Assembly (NCBI GenBank): GCA_016201275.1
Contig: JACQDB010000119.1
Location: 1 to 35,461, forward strand
Direction: 5' to 3'
DNA from: Acidobacteriota bacterium
GTDB lineage: Bacteria; Acidobacteriota; Blastocatellia; UBA7656
DNA: 35,461 bases
Made by a program: the position numbers and the translations under genes. The notes beneath the pieces were generated by a model. That model did no database searches. It saw nothing but the letters and a program-made list of their open reading frames with translations, and was not told the origin of the DNA. Below are positions 4,042 through 15,085 of the stretch, piece by piece. Position 1 is the first letter of the stretch; the number at the start of each line of letters is the position of its first letter.

Positions 4042-4137
4042 TAGCGGCTTGCGAATGTGTGCGATTTGTTGAGAGGCGGTCAGAGACCGCCTCTCAACAA
4101 GGTGTCGTGGGTCGCGAGCAAATGAGATTCGCTATAT
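4042..4137. repeat. Family B element, copy 2, carrying a nested family C hairpin
   Basis: The ends (TAGCGGCTTGCGAATGTG and AAATGAGATTCGCTATA) match the B copies at 191-265 and 22537-22590, but the middle is longer by a GTTGAG palindrome at 4068-4098. That makes this copy a nested insertion. It lies upstream of the SNF2 helicase gene, so it is in a position to affect the start of the defence operon. Confidence 0.7.
4068..4098. repeat. Perfect 14-bp-arm hairpin, family C core
   Basis: GTTGAGAGGCGGTC and GACCGCCTCTCAAC are perfect reverse complements around an AGA loop. The same core occurs at 7126-7178, 16936-16970 (one arm) and 30402-30455. Confidence 0.85.
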
Positions 4138-4222: not shown

Positions 4223-7099
4223 ATGACTGCTTATCATGCAAAATATTTCGCACATGAAATTACCAAGCGCAGCGCCTCGGACAACATAGCAAAACTAGGG
4301 GCGTCTTTGTTCAACGCCACGGTTGACTTAAACCCGCACCAATTGGACGCCGCCTTATTTGCCTTTCGCTCTCCGCTGTCGCGTGGAGCCATTCTCGCCG
4401 ATGAAGTCGGATTGGGTAAAACCATCGAGGCAGGCATTATCATCAGTCAACTCTGGGCGGAACGTAAACGGCGCATTCTGGTTATCGCGCCAACCATTCT
4501 TCGTAAGCAGTGGGCGCAAGAGTTGGCTGATAAATTTTATCTTCCCGCCTGGGTTGTGGATGCACGCGAATACAAGGCGCGTCAACGCACCGGCGCTCAC
4601 CCTTTTGAAGCGCAAGATAGCGTCATCATCTGCTCGTATAACTTCGCGCAAGCCAAAGAGACGGAGTTGAAGCATACGCGGTGGGACCTTGTGGTAATAG
4701 ACGAAGCCCATCGCTTGCGTAATGTGTACAAATCCGGCAACAAAATTGCCTCTGCCATCAAGCGTTCTATCAATCAAAGACCGACCCTTCTGCTTACCGC
4801 AACGCCTTTGCAAAACAGCTTGCTTGAACTCTACGGTTTGGTCAGTTTTCTCGACGAGCATATCTTTGGCGACAGCAAAGCATTTCGCGCTCGTTATATG
4901 CGCGGCGCAATCGCGCAACGCGAACTTGACGAGTTGCGCCAACGCTTGAAACCGATTTGCCAACGCACCTTGCGCCGACAAGTCAGCGAATATGTGCGCT
5001 TCACCAATCGCATCCCCTTCACTCAAGACTTCACCCCGACCGCCGAAGAACAGCGGCTGTACGATTTGGTTTCCGCTTACTTGCAACGCCAAACCCTCAA
5101 CGCCTTGCCCGCTAGTCAACGCAAATTGATGACCTTGGTGTTACGCAAGCTGCTGGCTTCTTCAACTTTCGCGATTGCCGGAACCTTGCGCGCCTTGGCG
5201 GCAAGATTAAAAACTCAGAGCCGAAAAAACGCTGCGCCAATCGCCGAAACCTTGGCAGAAGATTTTGAAGCGTTTGATGAAATGACCGAAGAGTGGACGG
5301 GCGAAGTCGAAGCGCAGAACCCAGACGATGCGCTCACAGACCTGCAAGCAGAGATTGGCAAAGAGATAAAGGAACTTTCAGACTACGGCGACCTCGCCGC
5401 GTCCATCACCTTCAATGCCAAAGGACAAGCCTTGTTGCAAGCCTTAGAGCAAGGCTTTAGCAAGCTCGAAGAACTTGGCGCGCGTCGCAAGGCGGTTATC
5501 TTTACAGAGTCGCGGCGCACTCAGGAATATCTCTTTAAGCTGCTCAACCATCAAGGCTACGGCGGGCGCGTCATGACCATCAACGGCACCAACACCGATG
5601 AACGCTCTAGCGCAATCTATCGTCAATGGCTTAAACAACACGAAGGCGAGTCAACCATGACCGGCAACAAGACGGTTAATTTGCGCGCCGCCTTGGTCGA
5701 GCATTTCCGCGACGATGCGGAGGTGATGATTGCCACGGAAGCCGCCGCCGAAGGGGTCAATCTGCAATTTTGCTCGCTTGTCGTCAATTACGATTTGCCT
5801 TGGAACCCGCAACGCATAGAGCAACGCATAGGGCGTTGTCATCGCTACGGACAGACTCACGATGTCGTTGTCGTGAACTTTCTCAATCGCAGTAATGCCG
5901 CCGATAAGCGAGTCTTCGAGTTGCTGTCAGAAAAATTTCGACTCTTTGAAGGTGTCTTCGGTTCTTCTGACGAAGTGCTGGGGGCGCTGGAAACGGGCGT
6001 GGATTTCGAGCGCCGCATAGGAGAAATTTATCAATCGTGTCGCACCTCCGCAGAGATTGACCTGGCGTTCGCGCAGTTGCGTCAAGAACTCGAAGACCAG
6101 ATTGCCGCACGCATGACCGATACGCGGGCGGCGCTGTTGGAAAATTTCGATGAAGAAGTCCATCGCCGTCTGCGCCTCAGTTATGAAGACAGTCGCCAAC
6201 ACCTGGATCAAATGGAACGCTGTTTATGGCGTTTGACCAAATACGAACTCACCGAAATTCTCAAGGGCGAGACCCACTTCGATGAGCAACGCTACGAATT
6301 TGATTTGCATGGTTCAGAGATAGACGGTTTAGAGGTGCCAAGCGGGCGTTATCGTTTCGTCCGGCGCTTGCCCCAAGAAGGCGAGGCGCAAGTTTATCGG
6401 CTGGGGCATCCGCTGGCAGAGCATTTGATTGCCAAAGCCGAAAGCCGAACCTTGCCGCCTGCTGAAATAATTTTTGATTACACCAATCACCAAGGCACAG
6501 TGGGCTTGCTCAAATCGCAACAGGGCAAATCCGGCTATCTGACCATCAGCCGTTTGAAGGTGACGGCGCTGGAAGAAGAAGATCGGCTATTGTGCGCCGT
6601 CTTCAACGATGAAGGGCAAACGCTGCATTCCGATTTCGGCGAAAAGCTCTTTTCGATTGACGGACAACTGAGCCGCGAAATTGCCTTGCCGGAGGCTGCC
6701 GCAGAGAGCTTGCAAACCCAGACAGAGGCTTTACAAAAATCTGCTCTGCAAGAGATCAGCGAACGCAACAGTCGCTTTTTTGAAGAAGAGATAGAGAAGC
6801 TCGAACGCTGGGCGGACGATTTAAAACATGGTTTAGAGATGGAACTCAAAGACCTTGACGCACAAATTAAACAAGCGCGACGCGATGCCAAACTGGCTGT
6901 AGAGTTGCAGAGCAAGTTGGAATTTCATCGCCGCATTAAAGAGTTGGAGGCGGCGCGTTCGCGCCAACGCCGCGAACTATACGAAGCCCAAGACGACATT
7001 GACTCGCGCAAAGAAGCATTGATTTCCGGCGTTGAAGCGCACTTGCAACAAAGCGTCGAAACCACTGCTTTATTCACTATCCGCTGGAAACTGATTTAA
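4223..7099 (+). CDS. SNF2-family helicase of a defence island
   Basis: The 958-aa protein is a superfamily 2 ATPase of the SNF2/RapA type. Motif I is DEVGLGKT (60-67), motif II is DEAH (160-163), motif III is in TATPLQN, and motif VI is QRIGRCHRYGQ (534-544). The helicase core is followed by about 370 residues, the last 120 of which are strongly charged and probably coiled coil (EEEIEKLERWADDLK onward). Such enzymes translocate on double-stranded DNA. Related helicases sit beside type III-like mod/res genes (from memory), as here. It is not obviously the DrmD helicase of DISARM, and no DUF1998 or PLD gene is present. AGAGGA lies 5 bases before the ATG. The TAA stop lies within the terminal repeat of the element at 7096-7216. 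It is the first gene of the island. Confidence 0.92.
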   Translation: MTAYHAKYFAHEITKRSASDNIAKLGASLFNATVDLNPHQLDAALFAFRSPLSRGAILADEVGLGKTIEAGIIISQLWAERKRRILVIAPTILRKQWAQELADKFYLPAWVVDAREYKARQRTGAHPFEAQDSVIICSYNFAQAKETELKHTRWDLVVIDEAHRLRNVYKSGNKIASAIKRSINQRPTLLLTATPLQNSLLELYGLVSFLDEHIFGDSKAFRARYMRGAIAQRELDELRQRLKPICQRTLRRQVSEYVRFTNRIPFTQDFTPTAEEQRLYDLVSAYLQRQTLNALPASQRKLMTLVLRKLLASSTFAIAGTLRALAARLKTQSRKNAAPIAETLAEDFEAFDEMTEEWTGEVEAQNPDDALTDLQAEIGKEIKELSDYGDLAASITFNAKGQALLQALEQGFSKLEELGARRKAVIFTESRRTQEYLFKLLNHQGYGGRVMTINGTNTDERSSAIYRQWLKQHEGESTMTGNKTVNLRAALVEHFRDDAEVMIATEAAAEGVNLQFCSLVVNYDLPWNPQRIEQRIGRCHRYGQTHDVVVVNFLNRSNAADKRVFELLSEKFRLFEGVFGSSDEVLGALETGVDFERRIGEIYQSCRTSAEIDLAFAQLRQELEDQIAARMTDTRAALLENFDEEVHRRLRLSYEDSRQHLDQMERCLWRLTKYELTEILKGETHFDEQRYEFDLHGSEIDGLEVPSGRYRFVRRLPQEGEAQVYRLGHPLAEHLIAKAESRTLPPAEIIFDYTNHQGTVGLLKSQQGKSGYLTISRLKVTALEEEDRLLCAVFNDEGQTLHSDFGEKLFSIDGQLSREIALPEAAAESLQTQTEALQKSALQEISERNSRFFEEEIEKLERWADDLKHGLEMELKDLDAQIKQARRDAKLAVELQSKLEFHRRIKELEAARSRQRRELYEAQDDIDSRKEALISGVEAHLQQSVETTALFTIRWKLI

Positions 7100-7216
7100 G
7101 GGAAGCGGAAAGAAATATCATCTCTGTTGAGAAGCGGTCTTTGACCGCGAGACTGGCGGTCAGAGACCGCTTCTCAACGGCAATTATGGGATTATATTTT
7201 CTTTCCCTTCCCTAAG
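7096..7216. repeat. MITE-like family C element, full copy, between defence genes
   Basis: The outer arms TTAAGGGAAGCGGAAAG and CTTTCCCTTCCCTAA are near-complementary terminal inverted repeats. Inside, GTTGAGAAGCGGTCT faces AGACCGCTTCTCAAC (7126-7178, perfect 15-bp arms), and between these TGACCGC faces GCGGTCA. A half copy lies at 16898-16970. The element contains the stop codon of the SNF2 gene (7097-7099) and separates it from the 67-aa gene. The predicted cruciform could attenuate transcription or protect mRNA ends. Confidence 0.8.
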
Positions 7217-7235: not shown

Positions 7236-7439
7236 ATGTCTGATGATTTGTCCTTATCGCCGAATGAAAAATTAGCCGCACTCATTGTTGAAAAACTGCT
7301 GGAGCAAAAATTGATTCCGCAGAAACGCGCCGCAGAAATTAAACATCGCCTAGCGGAAGGCACAGCCAAAGCGGAAGATTGGCGCAACTGGATAGAGCTG
7401 GCGCTGCCGCAAGCGGCGCAGGAGTCCGACCATGAATAA
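7236..7439 (+). CDS. Small conserved-looking protein of the defence operon (unknown)
   Basis: This is a 67-aa acidic protein that looks helical (NEKLAALIVEKLLEQKLIPQ, then RAAEIKHRLAEG). I do not recognise a family. It has a strong ribosome binding site, AGGAGG, about 9 bases before the ATG, and it overlaps the next ATPase gene by 8 nt, which suggests translational coupling and a stoichiometric partner role. A small subunit or regulator of the SMC-like ATPase is the simplest inference. It has no membrane segment and no Cys. Confidence 0.75.
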   Translation: MSDDLSLSPNEKLAALIVEKLLEQKLIPQKRAAEIKHRLAEGTAKAEDWRNWIELALPQAAQESDHE

Positions 7440-9768
7440 GCGTATTGAAAAATTGGTGCTGCATAAATTTCGCGGCGCGACGACAAAAACGATTCTGGAG
7501 TTTGACAGCAAAAAGCCTATGGCTTTAATCTTCGGCGAAAACGGCACAGGCAAATCCAGCATCATTGACGCCATTGATTTTCTCTTCAACAAATCAGGCG
7601 GCTCAATCAAAACGCGCAGTTCGACGGATGAGAAAAAACATCTCGCCTCGATTGGCAATAAAGCTAAAGATTTTGCCGTAGAATTGACTTATGGAAGTGA
7701 CCAATGGGTTGGCGTACATACCGGCAAAGAGATTGTTATCAACGGCAATTCATCGCTTCCTCAAGCTTTCATTCTAAGGCGCAGCCAGTTATTACGATTG
7801 GTCGAAGCCAGCCCCGCAGATAGTTACAAAGAGTTGCGCCGCTTCATAGACGTTCAAAACGTCGAAGACAGCGAACAGGCATTACGCAATGCTTTCAATG
7901 AAGCCAAGAGTCGTTTGAACTCGTGGACAGGACAAAAAGTTGAAGCAGATGCAGCTTTGCATGAACTTTGGCAGGGCGAAGGCTCTCCCAACAATACCGA
8001 GATAGATTGGGCATCTGAAAAAAAACGAGCCGATACGCAAAAACTACAAGCATCACTGTCTGAAACCCTAACCATACTACAGCAATTTGCGGCGGCGCTG
8101 ATGCAACAGAATAACTATCAAACGGCTCAACAAACTTTGCGGAGCAAGACACAGGAGTGGACTCAACTGCAAAATCAAATCTCTGCTGGTTCGCAAACCC
8201 AGGAAGCAAATCGCAAGCTCGTGCAGATGCTCAAGCAAGTCGAAAGCTATCTTGCAGCGCCTCTCGACAAAGACCATTGTCCTACTTGCCTTTCTACATA
8301 CCAGGTGGATAAGTTGCGCCGCGAAGTCGCAACACGCATAGCCGATATGACCGTGGCAGATGAAGTGAACGCAAAATTTGCCGACGCCGAAAAAGCCACG
8401 CAAAACGCCCATGCGGTCGTCGAACAATCGCGCAAGAATTTTACACAGGCGGCGCAGACCTGCACTTTATCGCTGCAAAAGTCTAAATTGCCGGAGATCG
8501 ACAAAGCAAAAATAGATTGGACGACTTACAGTCAACTTTTGAGCGGCGACACCCAACTGCAGGCTACAGAAGCCGAACGCTTATTGAGCGATACCAATTT
8601 GCTCCGCCTACAGTTGGAAAAGTTGAAAGCGCAAATGCAGAAGGACTTGAGCCAGCACAAAGCCATCACACAAGCGTATGAGCGCGTCGTCAATGCTGGA
8701 CAACAAGCCACCGAACAAGACTTGGTCACGCAAAAACTGAAACAGGTTCTGGACGTGGTTCACGACATCCGTATAGCTTTTACCGATCAGGTGCTGGAGG
8801 CTGTGAAAAATGAATGCAGCCGTCTCTATTCGCGCCTACACCCGGACGAACCATACACCCTCACTAGGCTTTTTCTAAATTTGAAGACCAAAGGCTCGCT
8901 TCATCTAGCGGCGCATTTCGACGGTTACGACGAGGTTTCGCCGCAAGCCTATTTCAGTGAGTCTCACCTCGACACGCTTGGATTTTGTTTATGGCTTGCC
9001 ATAGCCAAATTATCGAGCAACGGAAATGCGTTGGTGGTTTTGGACGATGCTTTCACCTCCGTTGACGCGCAACATATTGACCGCATCATTGACCTGCTTA
9101 CGGATGAATCTGATTCTTTTAATCAAATCATTATCACGACACACTCGCGCCGTTGGCTTGATAAATATCGCAATAGTGATAAACCAAAGAACAAAACGTA
9201 TGTATTGGAGTTATTGCGATGGCAACGCATGACAGGCATTTGCGCGATGGAAAGCAAACTGGAGGTCGCGGAACTCAGAGAAAAACTTAATCCTTTCCAA
9301 AAGTTGGACCGTCAGGCGGTCTGTTCTCAAGCGGGCGTGTTGTTAGAGCGCGCTCTGGATCATCTGGCTAAGTTATACGGCTGCCGTATGGCGAGGAACC
9401 GGGACAACGCCTATACTTTGAAACCGTTGTGTGACGCGACCAAAGAGTTGTTCAAAAAAATCAAAATCAAACGCTTACGAAAAGACGCTTCGGGAGTCAT
9501 CATTGAGCCGAATAATTACGAGCCGTCTTTGCAGCCTTTGTGGCAAAAGATCAGCGACCATGTGATTGTTCGCAATCAAGTTGGAGCGCATTTCAATGCC
9601 AATGCCGTCGAATACAGCGATGCCGACATTGAGGATTTTGGACACTACGCGGTTGATATAGTTTCAGGGTTGGTTTGCCATACCTGCGATTCTCTGGCGC
9701 AAACCAACAAAGGAGCGTACTTTGCCTGCGGCTGTGGAATGTTGCGGATGGAGCCTTATAAAATTTGA
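7432..9768 (+). CDS. SMC/Rad50-like ATPase with zinc hook and HEPN-like C-terminal domain
   Basis: The 778-aa protein has an N-terminal ABC half-domain with Walker A GENGTGKSS (35-43), then a coiled coil with a zinc-hook CPTC (C283, C286), a second coiled coil, a signature-like SESHLDTLGFC, and Walker B VVLDDAFTSVD (D538, D539). After the ATPase head comes an extra domain of about 170 residues. It contains RNQVGAH (R714 to H720), matching the RX4-6H signature of HEPN nucleases, and ends in Cys pairs C749/C752 and C766/C768 that look like a zinc ribbon. The layout recalls RloC, where a zinc-hook ATPase controls an anticodon nuclease next to a type I R-M system. The nuclease assignment is inference from one motif. 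The usual PrrC/RloC catalytic triad was not recognised. Confidence 0.88.
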   Translation: MNKRIEKLVLHKFRGATTKTILEFDSKKPMALIFGENGTGKSSIIDAIDFLFNKSGGSIKTRSSTDEKKHLASIGNKAKDFAVELTYGSDQWVGVHTGKEIVINGNSSLPQAFILRRSQLLRLVEASPADSYKELRRFIDVQNVEDSEQALRNAFNEAKSRLNSWTGQKVEADAALHELWQGEGSPNNTEIDWASEKKRADTQKLQASLSETLTILQQFAAALMQQNNYQTAQQTLRSKTQEWTQLQNQISAGSQTQEANRKLVQMLKQVESYLAAPLDKDHCPTCLSTYQVDKLRREVATRIADMTVADEVNAKFADAEKATQNAHAVVEQSRKNFTQAAQTCTLSLQKSKLPEIDKAKIDWTTYSQLLSGDTQLQATEAERLLSDTNLLRLQLEKLKAQMQKDLSQHKAITQAYERVVNAGQQATEQDLVTQKLKQVLDVVHDIRIAFTDQVLEAVKNECSRLYSRLHPDEPYTLTRLFLNLKTKGSLHLAAHFDGYDEVSPQAYFSESHLDTLGFCLWLAIAKLSSNGNALVVLDDAFTSVDAQHIDRIIDLLTDESDSFNQIIITTHSRRWLDKYRNSDKPKNKTYVLELLRWQRMTGICAMESKLEVAELREKLNPFQKLDRQAVCSQAGVLLERALDHLAKLYGCRMARNRDNAYTLKPLCDATKELFKKIKIKRLRKDASGVIIEPNNYEPSLQPLWQKISDHVIVRNQVGAHFNANAVEYSDADIEDFGHYAVDIVSGLVCHTCDSLAQTNKGAYFACGCGMLRMEPYKI

Positions 9769-9789
9769 AAGCCGTTTATGAGTATCTCT

Positions 9790-9885
9790 ATGAGCAAACC
9801 AACGAAGCTGGAATTGACTTGGATAGACAAAGAGCGGCATTCGCCGTTCCCATCCTTTCGCGTCTTTGGCGAGCATCGTTTATAA
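9790..9885 (+). pseudogene. Duplicated 5' end of the mod gene (remnant)
   Basis: The sequence from ATG 9790 repeats the start of mod at 10631 almost base for base for about 45 nt; both encode MSKPTKLELTWI. It then diverges and stops at TAA after 31 codons. The two copies differ at some silent and some coding positions, so the duplication is not brand new. The toxin-antitoxin pair lies between the copies, which suggests that mod once began here and that its start was duplicated or rebuilt when the pair was inserted. Confidence 0.7.
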
Positions 9886-9886
9886 T
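9881..9886 (+). promoter_or_regulatory. Candidate -10 box for the toxin-antitoxin pair
   Basis: A perfect TATAAT lies 19 bases before the antitoxin ATG. A matching -35 box is weak (TTTCGC at 9856-9861, 19-nt spacer). Its own promoter would fit an independently acquired module. Confidence 0.4.
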
Positions 9887-9905
9887 CGGATTTTGGAGAA
9901 AAGCC

Positions 9906-10136
9906 ATGCAAGACATCCAAGAGATTTACACAACAACTATCGCGTCTTTGCCGTCGGAAGCGAGATTGAGGCTGGCAGCATTGATAATAAATAGACTAGC
10001 CGAATCGCAAACCTCATCCGCGCCGCGCCAATCCGTGCGACAGATGGTTAAGAGAATGCCTAAGCAAAGACTCTTCCAAACTGCCGCCGAAGTTGATGAC
10101 TACCTGAAAGAGGAGCGCGAATCTTGGGAACATTGA
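9906..10136 (+). CDS. Antitoxin partner of a PIN toxin
   Basis: The 76-aa protein begins with a helical segment (SLPSEARLRLAALIINRLAE) and ends with RLFQTAAEVDDYLKEERESW, a tail seen in small antitoxins that precede PIN-domain toxins (from memory). Its C-terminus would thread into the toxin active site. I chose ATG 9906 because GGAGA precedes it by about 6 bases and the frame further upstream lies in the mod remnant. It overlaps the toxin start by 13 nt. It should repress the operon and neutralise the toxin. Confidence 0.78.
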   Translation: MQDIQEIYTTTIASLPSEARLRLAALIINRLAESQTSSAPRQSVRQMVKRMPKQRLFQTAAEVDDYLKEERESWEH

Positions 10137-10561
10137 GCTTGCCTTCTCAAGGGCTGATTTATATTGATACCGCACCGCTGATTTACAGCGTTGAACAACA
10201 TCCCGATTATGGCAATTTGCTTGCGCCTTTGTGGGAGGCGTCAGAAGCGGGTCAAATTCAGGTGGTTGCCAGCCAATTGCTTTTACTGGAAGTTCTGACC
10301 GGCGTGTTGAAACGCAACGACGCAGAGTTGCTGTCTGACTATGAACGTGTGTTGACGGCTTCCGAATTAAATCTTGTTCCGATTAGCGCGTCTATCTTAC
10401 GCGAAGCGGCTCACCTTCGCGCCACAATGAATTTAAAAACACCGGATGCCATACACGCGGCGACAGCTTTGACCGTCGGATGCGTACAATTTATTACCAA
10501 CGACTTTGAGTTTCGCCGCCTATCACAATTGAATGTGGTCATACTCAAAGAACTGATCTGA
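10124..10561 (+). CDS. PIN-domain ribonuclease toxin, VapC-like
   Basis: The 145-aa protein has the four acidic positions of a PIN nuclease: D15 in IYIDTAP, E56 in LLLLEVLTG, D108 in KTPDAIHAATA and D127 in FITNDFEF. PIN toxins are Mg2+-dependent RNases that block translation. The likely start is TTG 10124, with GAGGAG about 9 bases upstream, inside the antitoxin gene; an in-frame ATG is absent from the N-terminal region. The pair sits between the SMC-like ATPase and mod, which is an unusual place and points to insertion into the R-M operon. The target RNA cannot be told. Confidence 0.9.
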   Translation: MGTLSLPSQGLIYIDTAPLIYSVEQHPDYGNLLAPLWEASEAGQIQVVASQLLLLEVLTGVLKRNDAELLSDYERVLTASELNLVPISASILREAAHLRATMNLKTPDAIHAATALTVGCVQFITNDFEFRRLSQLNVVILKELI

Positions 10562-10630: not shown

Positions 10631-12347
10631 ATGAGCAAACCAACGAAACTGGAATTGACTTGGATAGGCAAGGACAAGCGCCCGCGACTTGAGCCGCGCA
10701 TCTTGCTCGAAGACGAAGCACTATCGTATCACGCGGCGCATCGCGTCAGTGAACATGACAGCTTCGACAATCGCTTGATACACGGCGATAATTTGCTGGC
10801 ATTGAAGTCTTTGGAACAGAGCTTGCAGGGGGGGGGTCAAATGTATCTACATTGATCCGCCTTACAACACCGGCTCGGCTTTCACACATTACGACGACGG
10901 CATAGAGCATTCGCTGTGGCTTTCGTTGATGCGTGACCGCTTGGAAATCCTCAGATCACTACTCACCCCTGACGGCTCCCTCTGGATTACGATTGATGAT
11001 AACGAAGCACACTATTTGAAAGTGCTGTGCGATGAAGTTTTCGGCAGGGCAAATTTCGTTGCGAACGTTATTTGGCAAAAAAAATCTTCTCCCTCAAATG
11101 ATGCAAAATGGATTTCTGATAATCATGACCATATTCTCGTCTATGCAAAAAATAAAGAATTTTGGAGACCAACAAAATTAGAAAGAACAGATGAGCAAAA
11201 CCGTATCTATAGACACTCTGATGAATATGATGGAGTGGGTGAAGACGGAAAAATATATGGACGCGGCCCTTGGTTTCCCGGTGATATGACAGTCAAAACG
11301 ATAAGTGAAAATGCCTTATATGAAATTATTACCCCTTCAGGAAGAGTCGTTAAACCTACAGACGGGCGAGCTTGGGTTTATTCCAAAGGAAAATTTGATG
11401 AGTTGTTAAAAGATAAGCGAATAACCTTTGGGAAAAATAAGGACAATAAGCCTTGTATAAAAAGATTTTTGACAGAAGTTGAAAATTCTAAAATAGTGCC
11501 TAAATCTGTTTGGCTCTATGAAGAAGTTGGTGAAAATCGAAACGCTCGACAAGAAGTTAAAAAATTTAATTCTATAAATCCTTTCGGCACACCTAAACCG
11601 GAACGATTACTTCAACGCATTATTCATCTCGCAACACAGCCCGGCGACATTGTGCTTGATTCGTTTGCCGGTTCGGGAACGACCGGAGCCGTCGCGCACA
11701 AAATGAATCGGCGTTGGGTGATGATTGAACTCGGCGAACATTGCCACACCCACATCATCCCGCGTCTCAAAAAAGTCATTGACGGCACAGACGAGGGCGG
11801 CATCTCGAAAGCCGTCAACTGGCAAGGCGGCGGCGGCTTTCGCTACTATCGTCTAGCGCCATCGTTGCTTGAACGCGACAAGTGGGGCAACTGGATTATC
11901 AATAAATCCTACAACGCCGCGATGCTTGCCGAAGCCGTCTGCAAACACGAAGGCTTTACTTACGCGCCTTCTGAAACCCTTTACTGGCAACAAGGGCATT
12001 CTTCCGAACGCGATTTCATTTATGTCACCACGCAAACCTTGAACCGTGAACAACTCGCCGCACTCGCCGAAGAGGTGGGCGATGATCGCTCGCTCCTCGT
12101 CTGTTGCAGCGCCTTCAAAGCCCAACCTGACGCCTTCCCAAATCTGACTTTGAAGAAAATCCCTAACACCGTTTTGCATCGCTGCGAATGGGGACGCGAC
12201 GATTACAGTTTGCAGATTGCTAACTTGCCACTCGCGCCGGTCGTTGAAGAAACGGCGCAAGCGCCAAGGGCTTCGTCCGCAACAAAACTAAAGCGCGCAA
12301 AGGAAATGTCCATGCCGCTCTTTGAACAAGGAGACGAACGCGAATGA
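10631..12347 (+). CDS. mod: Type III-like DNA methyltransferase (mod), frameshifted at a G9 tract
   Basis: Two overlapping frames make one gene. The first, from ATG 10631, gives the usual start (MSKPTKLELTWIGK, then RLIHGDNLLALKSL) and crosses a G9 run at 10828-10836 into TGA at 10853. The next frame reads VKCIYIDPPYNTGSAF and continues to 12347. One G fewer joins them into about 571 aa. The motif order is DPPY (motif IV), target recognition region, then DSFAGSGTTGAVA (AdoMet-binding motif I). This is the beta order of type III Mod adenine methyltransferases (N6_N4_Mtase family). The middle part (about 11060-11600) is AT-rich compared with its flanks. It overlaps res by 4 nt. The shift may be phase variation or a homopolymer sequencing error. 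Confidence 0.9.
10828..10836 (+). repeat. G9 homopolymer, possible phase-variation switch
   Basis: Nine consecutive G lie just upstream of the catalytic DPPYN codons of mod. With 8 (or 11) G the full frame is open; with 9 it ends 5 codons after the tract. Contingency poly-G tracts of this length are known from phase-variable genes in other bacteria. Confidence 0.65.
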
Positions 12348-15085
12348 ATCGCCACATCAACGCCATCAGTGGGCGGCTTTCGTTACGCCCGCCACAACGT
12401 CAATCCTTAGAAATCCTCTCGCACATAACCGAAATTCTGCCGCTTGAAAAAGGCGCAGATAGTGCAGAATCTTTGCGCCTTATCAATGCGGAATATCCAA
12501 CGGTTACGGACTTCGAGCGCGACTTCCCTTCGCTGTGTTTTGCGCTGGCAACCGGCGTAGGCAAGACGCGCTTGATGGGCGCCTTCATCGCCTATTTGCA
12601 TCTGGCAAAAGGCATCAGACATTTCTTTGTGCTGGCACCGAATTTGACTATCTATAACAAGCTGATTGCCGATTTTACGCCCAACCATCCCAAGTACGTT
12701 TTGCAAGGCATAGCCGAATTCGCGCAGGAGCCGCCGGAAATTATCACCGGCGACAATTATGAATCGGGGCGCGGCGTAAGAGAGCGAGACTTGTTTGGCG
12801 AACGCGGCATTCACATCAATGTTTTCAACATCTCGAAGATCAATTCCGAAACTCGCGGCGGACGCGAGCCGCGCATCAAGCGGCTTTCGGAATACATAGG
12901 GCAAAGCTATTTCGATTATCTGGCGGAACTCAATGACTTGGTTTTATTGATGGATGAATCGCATCGTTATCGCGCCTCTGCGGGAGTTCGCGCCATCAAC
13001 GAATTGAAACCTATTCTCGGATTGGAATTGACCGCCACGCCGCAAATCGAAGCAGGCAGCAAACCCCTTGCGTTTAAGAATGTCATTTACAGCTATGCAC
13101 TTTCACAGGCTCTGAGCGATGGTTTTGTCAAAGAGCCTGCGGTTGCCACTAGAGAAAATTTCGACCCCAAAAATTACACGGCAGAACAACTTGAAGAATT
13201 AAAAATCGCCGATGGCGTAAGGATTCACGAAAGCACCAAGGTCGAGCTTGAGACCTTTGCAAAACAGCATGACTTGCTGATTGTGAAGCCCTTTATGTTG
13301 ATAGTGGCGCGTGACACAGAACACGCCAACGCCCTGATGACGCAAATCAAGAGCGCTGATTTTTTTGCCGGACACTATAAAGAGCGCGTCATTACAGTGC
13401 ATTCAAATCAACGCGGTGAAGAGGCTGACGAAACCGTTGCGCGTTTGCTGGCGGTTGAAAAGACCGACGAGCCTACGGAGATTGTCATTCACGTCAATAT
13501 GTTGAAAGAGGGTTGGGACGTGACCAACCTCTACACCATTGTGCCACTGCGCGCCGCTAATTCACGCACCTTGGTCGAGCAATCCATAGGGCGCGGCTTG
13601 CGTCTGCCTTACGGACGACGGGTAGGCGTTTCGGCGGTTGACCGTTTGACCATTGTGGCGCACGACAAGTTTCAAGAGATCGTTGACGAAGCCAATAAAC
13701 CCGATTCGGTCATCCGCCTAGTCCCTGTTTATATAGGGCGCGATGTCGCGCAAGAACAGAAAAAATCTGTCACCGTAGAGCCAACCATCATCGCTGCTTT
13801 GACCAGTCAACTCAAGGCGACAGAGTTACAGAGTGCGCCACCAGCTCAAAGCCTTGACGGAGTTGAGGTAATGCCACAAGGGCAAAGCAAGGTGCCGCAA
13901 CTTGTGCAACAACCGATGCGCTTCGATAATCTTGAAGAGCAGCAAATCGCCAGAGTCACGCTGGAAACGATTCGCAAATTTGAGCGATTGCCGCGCTCTG
14001 CTGATTTGCAGAAGCCTGAAATCCAAGCCGAAATCGTCCGCGCCGTCGCACAAGCTTACATCCCTGTAGCGCAAAACGCGCTGCCCGGATTGGCAAGCCA
14101 ACCAAACATCGAGCGCCTTGTAGCGCAGACCACCGAACTCTTTATTGAGCTCTCCATTGATATTCCAAAAATCGTCGTCACCCCGAAAGGCGAAGTGGCA
14201 TACGGCTACAACGATTTCGATTTAGACACCAGCGGCATCAGCTTGCAACCTGTGGCGATGGATATACTGATTCAACATCTGCATAGCAATGAACGCGAAA
14301 TGCTGGCAAGCAAGAGCCTCGCGCAAGAGACGCGCTTGGAAGATTACATCGTCCGCGCCTTGATTGATTATGACGACATTTCGTATGACGACCATGCAGA
14401 TATGCTCTACAAATTGGCAGGGCAATTGACGGCGCACCTGCGCTCTTATTTGCCGGATGAAGAGGCGCTCACCAATGTCTTGCAATATCATCAACAACGT
14501 CTGGCGGCAGCCGTACACGCGCAGATGCAAGCCCAGCAATGGCAAGGCGCGACCGACTACGCGGTGAATGTCACACGCGGCTTTACGAGCTTGCGCTCAA
14601 ACAGTTATTCCGTTGGCGTTGGCGAAGGCGTGAGAGATTTCCGCGCTCCCGTCAGTGAGCGGCAGAACATCCGCAGTATGCACTTTGGCGGCTTTCGGCG
14701 TTGCCTCTATCCTGTACAGAAATTTGATTCGGATTCAGAGCGACGTTTTGCGGTGATTCTGGAAGATGCTTCGGAAGTCTTGAAATGGTTTAAACCGACA
14801 CGCGGACAGTTACAGATTTACTACACCAGAGATCATTTATATGAGCCGGATTTTGTCGTTGAAACAGCGACGGCAAAACTTTTGTGCGAGCCGAAACGCG
14901 CTTCGGAGATAGAAGACGAGGAGGTGAAAGCGAAAGCGCGCGCGGCTATCGCGTGGTGCCGCCAAGCAACTGAACATGAACTCGCGCATGGTGGAAAGTC
15001 TTGGCACTATTTACTCATCCCGCATGATGCGATGCTCTCGAATATGACAATAGGCGGCTTGATCGCAACCTATAATTTATCGTAA
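12344..15085 (+). CDS. res: Type III-like restriction subunit (Res): SF2 helicase plus PD-(D/E)xK nuclease
   Basis: The 913-aa protein starts with a ResIII/DEAD-type helicase: motif I ATGVGKTR (69-76), motif II DESH (204-207), TATPQ, and a C-terminal helicase lobe with HVNMLKEGWDVTN and EQSIGRGLRLPYGRR. Near the C-terminus, PDFVVE..LLCEPK supplies D836, E849 and K851, a PD-(D/E)xK endonuclease site. Res forms a complex with Mod, uses ATP to signal between two sites and cuts DNA near unmodified sequences. It depends on Mod for target recognition, so in the present mod-off state it should be inactive as a restriction enzyme. ATG 12344 overlaps the mod stop (ATGA), indicating translational coupling. 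All motifs look intact. Confidence 0.93.
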   Translation: MNRHINAISGRLSLRPPQRQSLEILSHITEILPLEKGADSAESLRLINAEYPTVTDFERDFPSLCFALATGVGKTRLMGAFIAYLHLAKGIRHFFVLAPNLTIYNKLIADFTPNHPKYVLQGIAEFAQEPPEIITGDNYESGRGVRERDLFGERGIHINVFNISKINSETRGGREPRIKRLSEYIGQSYFDYLAELNDLVLLMDESHRYRASAGVRAINELKPILGLELTATPQIEAGSKPLAFKNVIYSYALSQALSDGFVKEPAVATRENFDPKNYTAEQLEELKIADGVRIHESTKVELETFAKQHDLLIVKPFMLIVARDTEHANALMTQIKSADFFAGHYKERVITVHSNQRGEEADETVARLLAVEKTDEPTEIVIHVNMLKEGWDVTNLYTIVPLRAANSRTLVEQSIGRGLRLPYGRRVGVSAVDRLTIVAHDKFQEIVDEANKPDSVIRLVPVYIGRDVAQEQKKSVTVEPTIIAALTSQLKATELQSAPPAQSLDGVEVMPQGQSKVPQLVQQPMRFDNLEEQQIARVTLETIRKFERLPRSADLQKPEIQAEIVRAVAQAYIPVAQNALPGLASQPNIERLVAQTTELFIELSIDIPKIVVTPKGEVAYGYNDFDLDTSGISLQPVAMDILIQHLHSNEREMLASKSLAQETRLEDYIVRALIDYDDISYDDHADMLYKLAGQLTAHLRSYLPDEEALTNVLQYHQQRLAAAVHAQMQAQQWQGATDYAVNVTRGFTSLRSNSYSVGVGEGVRDFRAPVSERQNIRSMHFGGFRRCLYPVQKFDSDSERRFAVILEDASEVLKWFKPTRGQLQIYYTRDHLYEPDFVVETATAKLLCEPKRASEIEDEEVKAKARAAIAWCRQATEHELAHGGKSWHYLLIPHDAMLSNMTIGGLIATYNLS

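Follow-up and report, generated by a model that had tools for sequence, protein, structure and literature searches.

What does a protein that joins an SMC/Rad50-like ATPase to a putative RNase domain do when its gene is lodged between a SNF2 helicase and a type III restriction-modification (R-M) pair? The question is raised by contig JACQDB010000119.1 of an Acidobacteriota bacterium, of which the full stretch of 35,461 nt is referred to here as the window. The genes of the locus run in the order DrmD-like helicase, small gene, ATPase-HEPN, PIN pair, Mod and Res:

4223..7099, + strand: DrmD-like SNF2 helicase, 958 aa, first gene of the conserved locus (Pfam SNF2-rel_dom, E 5e-38; PADLOC DrmD, 707 bits)
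7236..7439, + strand: small partner gene, 67 aa, no Pfam family (conserved P9, G42, D48 and W49)
7432..9768, + strand: SMC/Rad50-like ABC ATPase with zinc hook, C-terminal HEPN domain and zinc ribbon, 778 aa
9765..10136, + strand: short ORF directly before the PIN gene, probable antitoxin by position only, with its first ATG further inside; accessory insertion
10124..10561, + strand: PIN-domain (VapC-like) gene, accessory insertion between ATPase and Mod (Pfam PIN, E 7e-17)
10631..12347, + strand: type III Mod methyltransferase (PADLOC MTase_III, E 8e-165)
12344..15085, + strand: type III restriction subunit Res, 913 aa (Pfam ResIII, E 3e-21; PADLOC REase_III, E 7e-244)

Mod and Res lie adjacent in tandem, which identifies them as a type III R-M pair, with the Mod frame shifted in the assembly. 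The shift falls at a G9 tract (10828-10836) near the Mod start and just 5' of the DPPY motif, leaving an N-terminal part that begins at 10631 and a main ORF at 10926-12347. The relatives checked have no such run and read through; the tract may reflect an error of assembly or else act as an ON/OFF switch for phase variation. The short ORF at 9765..10136 has no family match, and the PIN gene was not found between ATPase and Mod in the other loci examined. Promoter and terminator scans remained at chance level. Palindromes of the form TTGAGA(A/G)GCGGTC...GACCGC(C/T)TCTCAA are seen on either side of the helicase gene (4066-4100 and 7117-7187); as the exact pattern recurs at 83 sites in the genome (control pattern 0), they represent a dispersed REP-like family.

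Domain architecture of the 778-residue protein

The product of the ORF at 7432-9768 (+) contains CPTC at residues 283-286, RNQVGAH at 714-720, and cysteines at 749, 752, 766 and 768. Homologues were gathered by a contig scan of genomes followed by multiple alignment, yielding a set of 35 proteins including the window's own, to which the others are 25-40% identical. The following elements are recognized:

7525..7560, + strand: Walker A region, aa 32-43 (F34, G35, E36, G38, G40 and K41 invariant in 35 sequences)
8278..8289, + strand: zinc hook CPTC, aa 283-286 (C283, P284 and C286 in 35/35)
9040..9051, + strand: end of Walker B, aa 537-540, including D538 and D539 (both invariant in 35 sequences)
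9304..9675, + strand: predicted HEPN domain, about aa 625-748, with E639 in its long helix (model pLDDT 91; the 17 best VIA-align matches are HEPN)
9571..9591, + strand: RNQVGAH, predicted HEPN active site, aa 714-720 (R 33/35, N 33/35, H 35/35)
9676..9735, + strand: C-terminal zinc ribbon, C749-x2-C752 ... C766-x-C768 (C749 35/35; C752, C766 and C768 30/35 each)

The N- and C-terminal halves of the ATPase match the Pfam families SMC_N, AAA_15 and AAA_21, and the full-length model recovers the heads of SMC, Rad50 and Lamassu LmuB proteins (Foldseek E 3e-12 to 3e-10), with long helices flanking the zinc hook on both sides. As the Walker A region, the Walker B aspartates and the switch histidine H571 are all invariant across the alignment of 35 sequences, the ATPase is probably active. 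The same invariance, extending to the CPxC hook, bears out the original prediction of a zinc-hook SMC-like ATPase.

That prediction further took RNQVGAH for the signature of a HEPN nuclease. The published signature is R-x4-6-H with a polar residue after the arginine (PMC3710099), and the protein shows R714-N715...H720. The pattern is nevertheless easily come by: in a shuffle control on the last 179 residues, R-x4-6-H appeared in 57% of shuffles and R[NDH]x3-5H in 10%, so that the motif by itself is weak evidence and was dropped as sole proof of a HEPN domain, conservation being the real test. Across the 35 homologues H720 and E639 are each present in 35/35, G718 in 34/35, and R714 and N715 in 33/35 each; one of the two exceptions at R714, a Hymenobacter protein (L067, PRNAGAH), retains R-x4-H. 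These residues are among the most conserved in a domain with a mean conservation of just 0.34. The protein has two further R-x4-6-H matches, neither of which is conserved as a pair.

Residues 600-778, modelled alone from the 35 sequences, gave a pLDDT of 91 and a pTM of 0.86. A plain Foldseek search with this model returned nothing significant, but when the Foldseek candidates were ranked by VIA-align, the top 17 rows were all HEPN (Z 8.5-6.0), comprising Sulfolobus and Thermus HEPN homologues, HepT toxins and Csm6, with the best non-HEPN row at 5.1; a Z near 8 is moderate for a helical domain. It is this ranking, together with the R-N-x-x-G-x-H motif and the invariant glutamate in the long preceding helix, that identifies the C-terminal domain as HEPN by predicted fold and by motif, in agreement with the first reading. 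Neither of the outcomes named beforehand as refuting that reading, a predicted C-terminal fold other than HEPN or weak conservation of R714 and H720, was observed. Neither Pfam nor PDB sequence searches with the domain gave a match; it thus constitutes a HEPN family undescribed in the Pfam library.

The terminal C-x2-C/C-x-C site, likewise anticipated as a zinc ribbon, is complete in 30/35 homologues. Where C752, C766 and C768 are missing they have mostly been lost together, and the ribbon is probably dispensable in some relatives; its role is probably to help bind nucleic acid or a partner.

By record title the homologues come from about 14 phyla, many of them as metagenome-assembled genomes: Acidobacteriota, Armatimonadota, Pseudomonadota, Binatia, Bipolaricaulota, Elusimicrobiota, Chloroflexota, Nitrospirota, Verrucomicrobiota, Ignavibacteriota, Omnitrophota, WOR-1 and Bacteroidota, with Deinococcota represented by one interrupted copy (L059). 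Searches of phage records and viral contigs gave just distant or short ATPase matches.

Relationship to known defence systems

The original prediction likened the protein to RloC, a zinc-hook anticodon nuclease (Pfam AAA_13). In both RloC and PrrC an ABC ATPase controls a tRNase of the HEPN type; mutations in the hook of RloC raise its activity, and the type I enzyme of PrrC keeps it inactive until a phage blocks restriction (PMC2610378, PMC3710099). RloC rarely maps to R-M loci (PMC2610378). The likeness extends to the ABC ATPase head, the coiled-coil CXXC hook and the C-terminal HEPN-class nuclease, and the position of the hook is nearly equal (C288/C291 in Geobacillus RloC, C283/C286 here). 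However, the anticodon nuclease triad of RloC and PrrC is R-x3-E-x36-52-H (PMC2610378), whereas the window protein has R-x5-H, with the arginine beside the histidine; the residue four positions before E639 is G635, and H720 follows E639 by 81 residues. The AAA_13 profile scores 24 bits against a cut-off of 36, matching one ATPase stretch at profile positions 510-610. With the triad absent and AAA_13 below its cut-off, membership of the RloC/PrrC group was ruled out: the parallel holds for architecture, and by sequence the protein is not an RloC. It further differs from RloC in its extra zinc ribbon, its small partner gene and its fixed link to type III Mod/Res and a SNF2 helicase. Similarly, PrrC of the PrrI type I locus is an ABC ATPase-HEPN RNase fusion lying among R-M genes and a proposed second line of defence, but it has no hook, a type I rather than type III host locus and another catalytic spacing.

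Among other systems, Lamassu LmuB has a similar SMC head and coiled coil. One LmuB model is the best PADLOC match of the ATPase (E 2e-23, best stretch residues 138-581), and LmuB structures are among the Foldseek matches. In the window protein, however, the HEPN effector is fused in cis, and no LmuA or LmuC was recognized. LmuA is absent from the PADLOC matches listed for the locus proteins and larger flanking ORFs, and membership of Lamassu as defined was rejected. The helicase is most similar to DrmD of DISARM, but scores 709 bits against NCBIfam DISARM_DrmD_b (NF038318; cut-off 950) and 278 bits against NF038317 (cut-off 610), and the methyltransferase here is a type III Mod. None of DrmA, DrmB and DrmC was recognized among the locus proteins and larger flanking ORFs scanned with PADLOC, and DISARM membership was rejected on both the helicase scores and these absences. 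The Hma / BREX-related type 1 systems also combine a SNF2 helicase, a methyltransferase and an ATPase-HEPN fusion in one locus; theirs is a STAND/Cdc6-type AAA+ ATPase with an N-terminal HEPN (HEPN-DUF499), whereas the window encodes an ABC/SMC ATPase whose HEPN is C-terminal, along with a type III Res (PMC12839542). The open-access papers searched yielded no description of the ATPase-HEPN/helicase/type III combination, although a brief earlier mention may exist.

Conserved gene neighbourhoods

Contextual counts were taken over 26 other loci with at least 3 kb of upstream and at least 5 kb of downstream sequence. The helicase is present in 24 of the 26, and Mod and Res are both present in 21/26, on the same strand and in the same order, which substantiates the proposed tie to a type III system. 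In most related loci the helicase lies 5' of the ATPase, at 46-67% identity. Where all four large proteins are present (13 loci), the distances of the helicase are correlated with those of the ATPase (r 0.79; 0/2000 permutations as high), with the ATPase evolving faster than the helicase (mean identity 0.33 vs 0.54). In three loci (L032, L048 and L054) this helicase and ATPase occur together with Mod/Res of a more distant type. This exchange and the distance correlation indicate that the cassette travels with the helicase. The conserved operon is thus DrmD-like SNF2 helicase / small gene / ATPase-HEPN / Mod / Res.

In a phylum sample the helicase was found at E <= 1e-60 in 15/297 genomes, five of these 15 also encoding this ATPase. 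Seven helicase-positive, ATPase-negative loci (L121-L127) were inspected. The gap between helicase and Mod is occupied by a PLD-like gene (L121), an AlbA/Schlafen gene (L122), an OLD-TOPRIM ATPase (L123) or a DUF3800 gene (L124), and is empty in L125-L127. Loci with the ATPase often carry extra cargo as well, including AbiV HEPN (L025, L053), PLD (L031), AIPR (L052), AlbA (L033; AlbA-like ORFs in L041 and L044), YhcG (L037, L052; a similar ORF in L049) and the PIN pair of the window. Across these loci, predicted effectors of various kinds occupy one or two constant sites within the helicase/Mod/Res locus. By eye, AbiEi/AbiEii-like ORF pairs were also noted near the ATPase in unrelated bacteria (L055, L031, L074).

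The 67-residue ORF, which the original prediction did not mention, has a good ribosome-binding site and overlaps the ATPase start by eight bases. A homologue precedes the ATPase gene in nearly all related loci, including those on plasmids; in these homologues one tryptophan is invariant, and P, G and D are nearly so. A clear homologue was not detected in L052 and L053. Comparisons with Pfam, PDB and PADLOC gave no convincing family match. This gene and the ATPase-HEPN gene form a two-gene cassette.

Proposed function and alternatives

It is quite likely that the 67-residue partner and the Rad50-like ATPase-HEPN/zinc-ribbon protein act, within the SNF2-helicase/Mod/Res locus, as an effector cassette whose ATPase-controlled RNase provides a second line of defence. 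By analogy, the ATPase-HEPN protein is probably a built-in self-shutdown switch for occasions when phage threatens the first-line R-M system. Two ATPase subunits would join via the zinc hook, with their heads closing on ATP and DNA, and at rest the HEPN pair would be held apart or shielded by these heads, the hook and the small partner. Candidate triggers are DNA ends, intermediates of replication or restriction, and a failing restriction complex, any of which might alter the state of the heads. The HEPN dimer would then cleave RNA, perhaps tRNA, and translation and phage growth would stop. The helicase, Mod and Res would form the first line and the HEPN RNase the second, under control of the kind exerted in RloC and PrrC.

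The cassette is also found without R-M genes, so guarding an R-M system, the role that the original prediction supposed along with possible abortive infection, is not its sole setting. The Hymenobacter and Fibrella plasmids carry it without helicase, Mod or Res, and L063 and L067 have it without R-M genes. The main rival to the guard reading arises from this occurrence of the two genes by themselves: the small protein and the ATPase-HEPN might be a complete abortive-infection system, a self-contained sensor of DNA structure that detects phage DNA unaided, as Lamassu is thought to, and is merely carried by the R-M locus. The plasmid pairs beside Mov34/ThiF genes and the best PADLOC match to LmuB favour such a sensor, which we regard as possible but somewhat less than even in its chances, since the link to the helicase in 24 of 26 loci and the correlated distances suggest a functional tie. 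As to surroundings, the plasmid copies (L016-L020, Bacteroidota) adjoin Mov34/JAB and ThiF (ubiquitin-like) modules, mostly with a WYL-domain gene, and the chromosomal Hymenobacter copy (L067, 12389-19126) adjoins, by eye, a WYL-like regulator and apparent Wadjet (JetABCD-type) genes.

In nearly all loci, on plasmids as well, the small gene comes first and overlaps the ATPase gene, which also recalls a classical toxin-antitoxin pair, with the 67-residue protein as direct antitoxin of the HEPN toxin. We think this unlikely, given that the toxin is already fused to a large ATPase regulator, that the small homologue is not clearly detected in two loci and that the small protein lacks a family match. 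Direct antitoxin action of the 67-residue protein is in any case compatible with both the R-M guard and the stand-alone sensor.

The C-terminal homology (hhalign 99%) extends to a more distant branch that comprises Scalindua, Brocadiaceae, Roseibium, G067 and others. In its members L022, L027, L071-L075 and L094 the C-terminal histidine is kept, and mostly the zinc ribbon, but the active-site arginine has been lost; HEPN activity is consequently doubtful there, and an RNA-binding role is possible. A GIY-YIG-like ORF, judged by eye, lies just upstream in L074 and L075. Although this loss, the Rad50-like heads with their hook and the operon position would suit an R-M control protein, whose HEPN would be a non-catalytic RNA- or protein-binding module and whose ATPase would bridge DNA for the type III enzyme or aid post-restriction repair, such a role is quite improbable, as R, N, G, H and E639 stand out from a divergent domain in the manner expected of an active site.

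Returning to the second-line effector cassette, a broader version is conceivable, which we offer tentatively and with the balance rather against it: the helicase, Mod and Res may represent a broad undescribed class of restriction system with an exchangeable effector slot, with the Rad50-like HEPN cassette as one plug-in, which would sense a state of the helicase or of the restriction complex and respond to a failure of restriction by cutting RNA.

Implications

PADLOC flags the proteins of this locus merely as parts of other systems, namely DrmD, LmuB, and type III Mod and Res. The locus contributes a HEPN family for which Pfam has no model, joined to a Rad50-like sensor and held in a constant five-gene arrangement across about 14 phyla. 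That different effectors replace one another at one site suggests that the plug-in design is general, and a single operon now makes it testable how a restriction system could call in a suicide RNase.
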